From Enterococcus mundtii (GTDB lineage Bacteria; Bacillota; Bacilli; Lactobacillales; Enterococcaceae): a DNA stretch of 64,000 nucleotides. The notes under the pieces are model-generated. The model did no database searches and had not been told where the DNA came from. It worked only from the letters and a program-made list of their open reading frames with translations. The stretch lies in the NCBI RefSeq assembly GCF_013394305.1, contig NZ_AP019810.1, forward strand, positions 1,342,501-1,406,500, in the 5' to 3' direction. The position numbers and the translations under genes are program-made. Numbering within the stretch: position 1 is the first letter of the stretch; each line of letters starts with the position of its first letter. Of this stretch, positions 54,418 to 57,327 are shown in pieces.

Positions 54418-54475
54418 ACGAAGAAGCGATGCAAGGATAGACTGAAAAAAATAAAATTTAATATTGTTAAAACAA

Positions 54476-54535
54476 AACAAGCCGAAGAATCCTAAAACGC
54501 CTGTGCCTACTTCTGGATTCTTCGGCTTGTTTATA
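54476..54535. terminator. Terminator after proC, shared with the accessory cassette
   Basis: A perfect 17-bp stem AACAAGCCGAAGAATCC / GGATTCTTCGGCTTGTT has a 22-nt loop. U-rich sequence follows on the plus strand, and on the minus strand TTTTAAC follows. It can stop proC and the convergent cassette. Confidence 0.85.
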
Positions 54536-54549
54536 TTGAACAATTGCTA

Positions 54550-54903
54550 TTATTTCTTGTTTCGCTGTGTAAACAAAATTACCCCATATAAAATTAGTAT
54601 TCCTACAAGTATTAATATAGCGTACAAAAAACGTGTAATCTCAAATTTTTCAACCCCAAATGAGCTTACTATTTTAGGTGGTAAGTAAAAACACAAGAAG
54701 AGAAGAACCACATATTGGATTTTTCTTATCCTAGTTTCATTCTTAAACGGTTTAACGGATAAAAATGGAACGCCAAAAACATAGCCTAAACCACTGGTTG
54801 ATATTAGTATGGATTTATTTCCTTTCAATAAAAACTCAACCAAGCCGATAAAGACTAATACAAGTAAAAATATAACTAGTAATTTAACGATGTATTTCTT
54901 CAT
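54550..54903 (-). CDS. Small membrane protein, candidate immunity protein
   Basis: I do not recognise a family. The 117-residue basic protein has three to four hydrophobic helices (about residues 4-25, 30-48, 62-80 and 90-112) and a charged TQRNKK end. The start is the ATG at 54903, 8 nt after the stop of the secreted-protein gene upstream, so the two form one transcript. Size, topology and pairing resemble bacteriocin immunity proteins; this is inference. AT content is higher than in neighbouring genes, suggesting transfer. Confidence 0.65.
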   Translation of the reverse strand: MKKYIVKLLVIFLLVLVFIGLVEFLLKGNKSILISTSGLGYVFGVPFLSVKPFKNETRIRKIQYVVLLFLCFYLPPKIVSSFGVEKFEITRFLYAILILVGILILYGVILFTQRNKK

Positions 54904-54911
54904 AAGGTTAG

Positions 54912-55652
54912 TCACATCGTTCGATGCTGCGTTCCATGATATACCGTCCATGAGTCATTCCATACTTCTCGAACATATAATCCAATCCAACCATTACCAC
55001 TAGTGTCTAAAGCCGATGCAATGGCTGCTCCACTAGATAGACCATATGCCCCCATATACTCAAGTAAAAATTCTGCTGCAATTGTTGCAATACCAAATAC
55101 ACCAGCTGTAAAAGTAATTAAAGACGCAATCCCTATATTTACTAGCGACCCAAATATATTTTTCCCTACAGCTAAATTCGTATAATTCCATGAGGTATAT
55201 TTCAGCCTTAGTAGATTATTTGAGAGATCATCTAACCCATTTTTTTCACTATTTTCGACTATCAATGGGTATTTTTCAGTTATTTGTCTATATTCACCAT
55301 CATTATTTTTTTCTTTTTTCTCGACAATCACTTCACTACCTGTTCTTGTTACAGCCATTGTTTCTAATGTTTGTAAATTAGTAACCTCTGCGGCCAATAC
55401 ATTATTGTTTCTATCTAGCAACTGAATAATATGCTCATTGTTTTCATCGAATTGATTAATCTTAGCAGTATTCTTATAAGTGATAACCGCATCATTAAAT
55501 AAATCCGTTTGATAAGATTTAGCCTCTGTCGTTGTTTTTTCTTGATACTCCGAGGCAAATACTGACTCATTAACTCCTAAAACCGAAAATACTATAACAC
55601 TAGCTAACGTACTGATTGTGACAGATAAGGTAATGATTTTAGATTTAATCAT
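54912..55652 (-). CDS. Secreted protein with hydrophobic Gly/Ala-rich C-terminus (bacteriocin-like candidate)
   Basis: The 246-residue product has an N-terminal signal peptide (hydrophobic core about residues 7-27, likely cut after VFA near residue 33) and a polar middle domain (about 34-160). A Gly/Ala/Ile-rich hydrophobic stretch follows (about 165-215, including SLITFTAGVFGIATIAAEF). It ends with an aromatic tail (WIGLYVREVWNDSWTVYHGT). That plan fits a membrane-active secreted bacteriocin or toxin, and the downstream small membrane gene would be its immunity. No named family is claimed. The ATG follows GGAGGAG. The gene is AT-rich with rare-codon use unlike its neighbours. Confidence 0.7.
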   Translation of the reverse strand: MIKSKIITLSVTISTLASVIVFSVLGVNESVFASEYQEKTTTEAKSYQTDLFNDAVITYKNTAKINQFDENNEHIIQLLDRNNNVLAAEVTNLQTLETMAVTRTGSEVIVEKKEKNNDGEYRQITEKYPLIVENSEKNGLDDLSNNLLRLKYTSWNYTNLAVGKNIFGSLVNIGIASLITFTAGVFGIATIAAEFLLEYMGAYGLSSGAAIASALDTSGNGWIGLYVREVWNDSWTVYHGTQHRTM

Positions 55653-55885: not shown

Positions 55886-55995
55886 TTCTGTTACCTTAGA
55901 ACTGAATAAACGCCGAGAACATCCGTAACCTCTTCGAGAATAAGACTGCACATTTTTATGCTTACTGTCTTAGTAATCGAAGAGGTTGTTCTTCA
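55886..55995. repeat. Dispersed hairpin repeat, copy D
   Basis: The core ACTGAATAAACGCCGAGAAC, then ATCCGTAACCTCTTCGAGAATAAG-type sequence matches copies A-C. Here the main stem is different: AACCTCTTCGA (55927-55937) pairs with TCGAAGAGGTT (55977-55987), with AGAC / GTCT inside. It lies about 80 nt past the end of the decayed gene. Confidence 0.75.
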
Positions 55996-56077: not shown

Positions 56078-57327
56078 TTACAGACTAACCTGTTTTCCCT
56101 TCACGATAGACTGCTGGTAAGTGATTGTCGCGTTGATCTCTTTACTAACCTTTTTGCCATGTCTTATGATCTTTGCAGAATCTACCGCTCCATCTCTTGT
56201 TTGAGCAGGTACTTCTGTCGACATTTTGGTACTGCTTGTTTCTTTTCTAAACGTTTAGCTTGTTCAATCACTAAAAAAACACCTGTTTGCATCGTCGTTG
56301 CACCACTAAACAGCTTACTATCTCCTAATCCTTCTTCTTTTGTCTCTCTTTTGACGCGGGGGTTATCGTGGAACTCATTTTTATCCTCACCCCCTCTCAT
56401 GATCCTTGCAAAATTCGCTACTTCATCTCTTATTTGAGTAGATCTTGTCGGCGTCATTTCAGACAATTCTTGCTTTTTTTCTAAATCTTTGGTTTGTTCT
56501 AAAACAAAGAAATTAACTGTTTGCATCATTGCTAACACAGTGAATAGCTTGCCATCTCCCATTTCCTCTGCCTTTGTTTTTCTTTTGACACACGGTTGGT
56601 TATAGAACCTATTTTGATTGGCAAAATCTCTTATAATCGTTGCAAGCAATTGAGCATCCGTCAATTTGAACTTAGTAAATAATAAAGGGTCTGTTTGAAA
56701 TGCTTTGATGACAGTTTTTTTAGATGACTGAGGGGCATTTTGCTTTTTTGCTACCGCTGTAACAAATTGATCAAAATTAGGAGGTTCAAAATACTCTGCG
56801 TAGCGTGCAAGAAAATCATCTTTCACATTTTGTCCACTCAGCAAAAATCCAGTAGACGTTAGCCCATATTTAACAATATCATATGTTCCTGAAACAATAT
56901 GTGTGGTTTCATGTGTGATCGTTCTCTCTGGAGGTACTGCCATTTGGATTCCTTGTAAAATTTCTGGTCTTTTATGGAAAGCATCCGCTACAATAACGAT
57001 GCGACACTCAGCATCTTCTTTCAATACAAAGGCATAGGCTTTCGGATCATCATTACTAATGGAATAATAGGCATGTGTCTTCTCATCTAGCACAAAATCA
57101 GTCGAAACGACCCAAATATTTTCAAATCCCCAGTCTGCTGTTCGACGCAAACATTGTTCGCCTTTTGTTGCGATCGAAAGGAGTCGCTCGATTGATTCCT
57201 TTAAAATCTTCTCTTATTGAAAAGAAGGTGGTATATCAAGGAATTTTCTTAAGTATTGACCTTCGACTGTTTCTGCGATTTTATCTACTTTTAATAATTC
57301 TAAACACACATCTTTGACTAAAGTCAA
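56078..57327 (-). pseudogene. Decayed gene with HETTH metallopeptidase-like motif
   Basis: The intact middle is 322 codons (57150-56182). The frame continues upstream to 57327 except for one TAA (57216-57214), and no start codon or ribosome-binding site is seen, so the 5' end is missing. HETTH (residues 80-84 of the middle part), followed by Asp91, suggests a zincin. A unit of about 78 residues is tandemly repeated (182-259 and 260 onward). The second unit breaks at an A-run (56227-56224); shifting one base restores similarity (RDGAVDSAKIIRHGKK) and continues to 56078. The original may have been a large secreted toxin or peptidase; its family is not identified. Confidence 0.75.

Follow-up and report, generated by a model that had tools for sequence, protein, structure and literature searches.

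P0001, a secreted-type protein encoded in the analysed window (64,000 nucleotides of Enterococcus mundtii DNA), is most probably a pro-bacteriocin exported by the Sec pathway, likely of narrow spectrum, and the adjacent small protein P0002 its membrane immunity protein. As far as sequence can tell, this reading draws on the architecture of P0001, the pairing of its C-terminal domain with a downstream partner, the correlated divergence of the two, the loss of the toxin at loci that have kept the partner, and the presence of the pair on plasmids and in prophages; proteolytic cleavage, a membrane target, killing and immunity are what we infer for it.

A secreted-type protein and a basic membrane protein between proC and rny

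The two genes lie on the same strand (Table 1), with 8 nt between the TGA of P0001 and the ATG of P0002. No obvious Shine-Dalgarno sequence precedes the P0002 start, as opposed to the GGAGGAG found ahead of P0001, and coupled translation of the two is therefore suggested. An alternative 133-aa call for the P0002 reading frame overlaps P0001; the MKKY start (54903) was taken because it is common to the orthologue in L004 (Enterococcus sp. 10A9_DIV0425), which has the same site and gene order as the window. The hairpin between the unit and the convergent proC is strong (−33 kcal/mol, z −7.65, U-rich tail). A consensus scan returned 0 terminator-like sites at the locus, having missed this hairpin because its loop is longer than the 8-nt limit of the scan, and recognised no sigma-70-like promoter upstream of the P0001 gene on its own strand. 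The inverted repeat on the upstream side may be a control element or a remnant. The GC content of the cassette (28–35%) is lower than on either the proC side (37–42%) or the rny side (35–47%), and the description of an AT-rich pair bounded by a terminator and a repeat in the initial annotation is thus borne out.

Table 1. Features of the P0001-P0002 locus, in positions of the window
Feature	Position	Strand	Basis
P0001, bacteriocin precursor (putative), 246 aa	54912..55652	-	ORF; 88% orthologue in L004; homologues
P0002, putative immunity protein, 117 aa, basic, 3-4 membrane segments	54550..54903	-	ORF, hydropathy
GGAGGAG, Shine-Dalgarno of P0001 gene	55658..55664	-	read from sequence
Terminator-like hairpin between the P0001-P0002 unit and convergent proC	54475..54532	-	folding
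Hairpin-forming inverted repeat upstream of P0001 gene	~55915-55992		z -3.36
Signal peptide, residues 1-33	55554..55652	-	hydropathy; cleavage after VFA by eye
Acidic pro-region, residues ~34-150 (boundary inferred)	55203..55553	-	charge; low-to-moderate-confidence model
C-terminal effector domain (putative), residues ~151-246, ~97 aa	54915..55202	-	profile A2, alignment
Conserved loop DTSGNGWI, residues 216-223, half-EF-hand-like D-x-[NS]-x-N-G	54984..55007	-	
558-bp stretch, residues ~19-204, absent with identical ends in G007, G008 and G012	55040..55597	-	

One element of that description did not hold, namely that the gap between proC and rny is otherwise conserved, as its contents differ between G007, L004 and the window. 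The gap is occupied in G007 (L123) by a 2632-aa reading frame with five QWxxN-domain stretches, in L004 by an ISL3-family transposase, and in the window by a broken remnant of the G007-type large gene (~56162-57318, reverse strand). This remnant is a C-terminal piece with 75% identity over 367 aa to the 2632-aa protein, whose frame is uninterrupted in G007 (L123 2276-10174). The piece gives a sub-threshold match to Aspzincin_M35, and one HExxH motif is found in the 2632-aa protein.

Hydropathy and composition agreed with the view of P0001 as a signal-peptide protein with a Gly/Ala-rich hydrophobic C-terminal stretch. Its N-terminus was judged by eye to resemble a signal peptide (hydrophobic at ~4-29, then VFA|SE), with similar ends in the aligned homologues; the hydrophobic stretch covers residues ~166-197, and Gly and Ala make up 24% of residues 150-246. 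The precursor has a mass of 27.2 kDa, with 23.7 kDa for residues 35-246, and contains 0 cysteines. Across 17 aligned proteins (L032 excluded as a near-copy of L031), the region from residue 26 to the last 97 residues is net negative in all 17, and the C-terminal domain is net positive in 14, the non-cationic ones being P0001 itself (charge −1), L004 and L030. Six residues are invariant (T158, A212, D216, N220, G221 and T245). The D-x-[NS]-x-N-G loop, which might bind calcium, occurs in all 17 aligned proteins and in 19 of 20 genome loci, the exception being L032 with Glu at the G221 position. P0002, likewise as initially described, is a small basic membrane protein (frame 54903 to 54550, pI 10.1, charge +12) with four hydrophobic segments by window-based hydropathy.

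AlphaFold models of both proteins were built from alignments of two rows each (window and L004), and are for that reason too weak to use: P0001 reached an overall pLDDT of 47, with a beta meander predicted at 64-129 (pLDDT ~59-72) and no reliable fold for the C-terminal domain (pLDDT below 50), and the P0002 model was similarly weak. Foldseek with the P0001 model gave no match at E ≤ 0.001. When compared to sequences of solved structures, P0001 and the domain profile had best hits at E 0.53 and 0.86, respectively, both implausible, and L018 had no relative.

Neither protein reached a cut-off in Pfam or NCBIfam, the best PHROGs hit had an E-value of 0.012, and PADLOC returned nothing, so that the earlier label of unrecognised type stands for these four resources, with no cut-off reached and no convincing match. 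A housekeeping identity for the large protein, which had been put forward as evidence that would speak against the bacteriocin reading, was not found: as a housekeeping or enzyme family member P0001 has no usable score (best Pfam match EssA, E 0.053; PHROG E 0.012). In a BLAST-level search, relatives of P0001 were present in 8 of 16 genus genomes, the window's included. A profile of the C-terminal domain built from nine sequences (A2) matched 16 of 106 family genomes, 23 of 396 genomes of the order Lactobacillales (10 of 80 genera), 2 of 398 class genomes, both from the window's family; in 398 phylum genomes its one match was the window's own genome. No match was found among phage records, and 0 of 30 pattern matches in viral contigs were confirmed. 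A search with the accessions of six family proteins (four secreted, two partners) found no paper; Tedim et al. 2024, cited elsewhere as reporting several putative E. faecium bacteriocins under the name 'bacAS' (as cited in PMC11008740, PMC11784074), may already list a family member.

Pairing, loss and mobility of the family

By profile search, the domain is uninterrupted, within a single open frame, at 21 genome loci (13 in Enterococcaceae, 8 elsewhere), of which 20 were examined, the G141:C9 copy being left out. A partner matching profile A3 or A4 starts at most 45 nt downstream in all 20. Since neighbours of this kind served to build both profiles, the match follows by construction; the informative point is that these neighbours group, by sequence, into two homologous sets, whose members are small and positively charged and contain hydrophobic segments. 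These two partner families, a long and a short type, are both small membrane proteins by prediction, each of the 26 aligned members being net positive and having one hydrophobic segment or more; at the threshold used, 5 of 16 short partners have one hydrophobic segment only. No relationship between the two families was demonstrable (hhalign probability 1%). PrsW-family protease genes adjoin two of the long-type pairs, L005 and L035.

An in-frame hydrophobic N-terminus is present at 14 of the 20 uninterrupted loci. L055 falls just below the threshold, L054 is cut by the locus edge, with the hydrophobic N-terminus visible in L125, and the remaining four (G014:C1, G015:C2, G025 and G368) lack one and may therefore be dead or unsecreted. 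On plasmids, the partner was present at all six loci examined (H1 and five of 155 records); in L069, the region before the domain is out of frame with it.

A tree of the domain was constructed from 20 rows (16 genome loci and 4 plasmids), excluding the near-copies L032, L053, L063 and L067 and the broken L069. The 5 rows with long partners separated from the 15 with short partners at 100/100 support, and clade and partner type matched in 20 of 20. Toxin and partner distances were correlated within both sets (Mantel r 0.66 for the 15 short pairs, 0/5000 permutations; r 0.96 for the 5 long pairs, 45/5000 permutations). As the remaining near-copies and shared history inflate these correlations, they and the clade match support a long-standing pairing of the sequences and do not prove contact.

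A broken or fragmentary domain was found at 20 loci, where the partner is intact at 15, shortened at 1, split at 2 and not found at 2. Thirteen of these loci are from Enterococcaceae (G009:C28, G002:C39, G016, G009:C77, G004, G001, G011, G005, G000:2254589, G007:443939, G008, G007:2874722 and G012) and seven from elsewhere (G183, G277, G206, G217, G347, G220 and the second copy in G292), with the partner intact at 11 and 4, respectively. It is split in G000:2254589 and G008, shortened in G292, and was not found at G183 and G220. The losses in G007, G008 and G012 are not independent, as one deletion of 558 bp has the same ends in all three; the partner behind it is intact in G007 and G012, and in G008 it is split by a stop codon.

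Among the 106 family genomes, the 21 loci with a long-type partner comprise 4 with an uninterrupted domain, 9 with a broken domain and 8 with none, and the 32 examined of 38 short-type partner rows comprise 9, 4 and 19, respectively, 'none' meaning no domain by profile within ~1.5 kb of the partner. Some partner rows are themselves partial (e.g. G003:C55 and G009:C4). The initial annotation had counted common occurrence of the small protein without the large one as an argument against its proposal; partners are indeed often alone, but no uninterrupted domain was seen without one (20 of 20). With intact domains always accompanied and partners found on their own, the dependence runs one way and is, judged from gene content, the behaviour of a poison and its immunity gene. 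Four g6 genomes of four species (L114, L115, L116 and L118) share a solitary short-type partner, located at one common site after an aminotransferase gene (by Pfam for L118, by eye for the others); it has the look of an orphan immunity gene retained by vertical descent.

The family is also mobile. All 155 plasmid records matching the short-type toxin are from Enterococcus, and a megablast search of plasmids with one short-type pair gave 144 records, again all from Enterococcus, 125 of which cover at least 80%. Among the 60 plasmid matches listed, 50 are from E. faecium with at least 99% coverage of the pair; many of the plasmids listed are 4.7-8.2 kb, and many come from human blood or rectal swabs. 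Two small E. faecium plasmids were opened and found to encode a DUF536 protein and the pair, one of them also MobC and a relaxase; neither has a gene annotated as rep. In G048, the pair is located between phage transcriptional activator and terminase genes (PHROGs), and in G051 its neighbours include an HNH gene and a phage regulator. G141 (L056/L063) has four equal-scoring copies of the short-type pair's domain in one genome, two of which face each other on one contig, ~0.6 kb apart.

When the window was compared to L004, dN/dS was 0.24 for the P0001 gene (dS 0.24) and 0.30 for the P0002 gene (dS 0.35), which in this one comparison points to purifying selection. As proC has a dS of 1.22, the cassette looks to have been swapped between the species after their split and then constrained, with proC as the sole yardstick. 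For the P0002 gene, dN/dS was 0.93 against G007 and 0.30 against G012, values that reflect very few changes (dS 0.07).

Comparison with known systems and alternative explanations

Class II bacteriocins are smaller than ~10 kDa. The precursor of P0001 exceeds this, as initially noted, with no family over its cut-off, and a processed form of ~10 kDa is possible. The layout of a Sec signal, a pro-region and a C-terminal active part in an Enterococcus protein is analogous to that of EntV (enterococcin V583, EF1097; NF058576), the precursor of which is described as being cut by the GelE protease to a 68-aa active C-terminal form (PMC9562342, PMC6606811). In contrast to EntV, which requires a disulfide between two cysteines, P0001 is cysteine-free, and the DxNxNG loop is missing from four EntV-like proteins of the genus. 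These four, used to represent EntV and themselves below the NF058576 cut-off, aligned with the P0001 family over 32 signal-peptide columns only (hhalign 68%). P0001 gave no NCBIfam match at E ≤ 10, and L018 matched NF058576 at E 0.15 (12 of 130 bits); other genes in 6 of 16 genus genomes matched this model at E ≤ 0.001, none over the cut-off and none in the window's genome. Membership of EntV was rejected on these grounds: the missing model match, the alignment confined to the signal peptide, the lack of cysteine and the absence of the loop from EntV-like proteins. In L022 (G013) and L023 (G011), the EntV-like gene is followed by one for a hydrophobic protein of 226-228 aa with a CxxC motif noted by eye, for which Pfam gives only a sub-threshold 7TMR-DISM match in L022; it is perhaps a dedicated redox partner.

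In plan, the pair appears nearest to streptococcin A-M57 and dysgalacticin, both compared by description only. Dysgalacticin is described as a plasmid-borne protein of ~21.5 kDa with a Sec-type leader and an adjacent membrane-associated immunity protein, DysI, which depolarises the membrane and targets a sugar PTS (PMC8308785), and the two bacteriocins are assigned to the large non-lytic class IIIb (PMC10086258). The family shares with this class plasmid-borne members, a Sec-type N-terminus and a mature part of more than 10 kDa, and with dysgalacticin the adjacent small membrane protein, for which an immunity role is putative in P0002. Non-Enterococcus plasmids were absent from the short-type toxin matches (0 of 155), the plasmids of streptococcin A-M57 and dysgalacticin possibly lying outside the collection. 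No peptidoglycan hydrolase domain of the kind found in bacteriolysins (class IIIa) was matched by Pfam in P0001 and six related toxins, and a murein endopeptidase match of L015 in NCBIfam was far below the cut-off (E 0.051, 13 of 186 bits). In a review of enterocins, class III is represented in enterococci by two proteins, each of them lytic (PMC8532689).

Small mobilizable plasmids of ~6 kb are described as carriers of bacteriocins 43 and 51 in E. faecium (pDT1 and pHY), with rep, mob, bacteriocin and immunity genes given for pDT1; unlike bacteriocin 43, placed in class IIa (PMC11275671, PMC8532689), the family proteins reach no NCBIfam bacteriocin cut-off. Similar to pDT1 and pHY, family pairs reside on small E. 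faecium plasmids. Bacteriocin 51 is reportedly a short peptide related to bacteriocin 32, and the small plasmids as its carriers were tentatively set aside on this description.

A less probable but still credible explanation is that the domain is a general polymorphic-toxin tip with cell-associated or contact action, the N-terminal part then being a carrier and not a pro-region. In the manner of polymorphic toxins, the domain may end different carriers with a partner downstream. In G292, it terminates a 799-aa secreted-type protein with a hydrophobic N-terminus (whose fn3 match, at 21.6 bits, misses the curated cut-off of 25), behind which come the partner and then another copy of the tip, broken, whose own partner is shortened. 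Short partners that stand alone or in tandem (two each in L117 and L027) are reminiscent of immunity strings. However, G292 is the one large carrier among the 20 examined loci, the other 19 encoding small proteins or 5'-altered remnants of small proteins, and the two opened plasmids carry little besides the pair. Those same sparse plasmids, and partners kept where the poison is lost, would also suit an addiction module of the plasmid or island, with a secreted poison killing cells that lose the cassette. We consider this improbable: a precursor that is secreted will inherently act on neighbouring cells, which makes addiction an effect of a bacteriocin more than an alternative to it, and the chromosomal copies and solitary partners, such as those at one site in the four g6 genomes, fit protection from a foreign toxin.

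It also seems improbable that P0001 is a host-directed or surface colonisation factor with P0002 as its membrane chaperone or anchor. The Sec-type N-terminus would agree with such a role, and the L005 plasmid also has a gene annotated as 'LMxysn_1693 family intestinal colonization protein', a family described in connection with bile salt resistance (PMC9320622); yet P0001 matched no sorting-signal family, and a chaperone or anchor should be lost with or after its client, whereas the partner outlasts the domain at 15 of the 20 broken loci and also occurs alone. Chance reading frames or a decaying phage remnant, which an AT-rich region with no recognised promoter might bring to mind, can practically be dismissed, being contradicted by the dN/dS values against L004 as well as by homologues with a conserved motif in 10 of the 80 sampled genera of the order.

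Proposed mechanism and neighbouring candidates

For the preferred reading, a pro-bacteriocin with its immunity protein, we propose the plan of EntV, which is cut by GelE. P0001 would be exported by Sec and its signal peptide removed. As long as the acidic pro-region (~34-150) is attached, the C-terminal domain would stay in solution and inactive; an extracellular protease would then cut near residue 150, both the site and the protease being guesses. The freed domain of ~97 aa, with its hydrophobic Gly/Ala-rich stretch of ~30 residues and the D-x-[NS]-x-N-G-W loop, would then dock on and insert into the membrane of related bacteria and dissipate its potential. Coupled translation of the shared transcript would supply P0002, which would sit in the producer membrane and block insertion or the receptor.

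More tentatively, and as one joint proposal that we find conceivable without favouring it, the domain could be a new, portable antibacterial effector of Lactobacillales that uses a calcium-binding D-x-[NS]-x-N-G-W loop for docking or insertion, acts in some cases as a released pro-bacteriocin and in others at the end of large surface proteins, and is opposed by membrane immunity proteins from two mutually unrelated families, which many strains keep as solitary shields; carried on small plasmids, it would then arm human-associated E. faecium with a weapon so far overlooked. If active, the family would add one more domain to the few known large non-lytic bacteriocins and account for two 'hypothetical' proteins that travel together on E. 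faecium plasmids. It would also give annotators two candidate immunity families marking possibly protected strains. Natural toxins with matched and mismatched partners make specificity directly testable.

Other candidate loci were seen alongside the family. Just upstream of a long-type pair in G014:C54 (L127 7831-8609), a 183-aa signal-peptide-like protein with no usable match in Pfam or NCBIfam is followed by a 67-aa hydrophobic reading frame, possibly another unlisted bacteriocin type. The E. faecalis plasmid Efsorialis-p1 (L069 1969-3335) encodes a 213-aa secreted-type protein (no Pfam match) and a small hydrophobic reading frame, adjoining enterocin L50-like genes and a short-type pair with a broken 5' end in a bacteriocin-rich plasmid region. 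In G048:C16 (L128 16855-17997), a phospholipase A2-domain protein is followed by two small hydrophobic reading frames, in a region that also has phage genes and a short-type pair.
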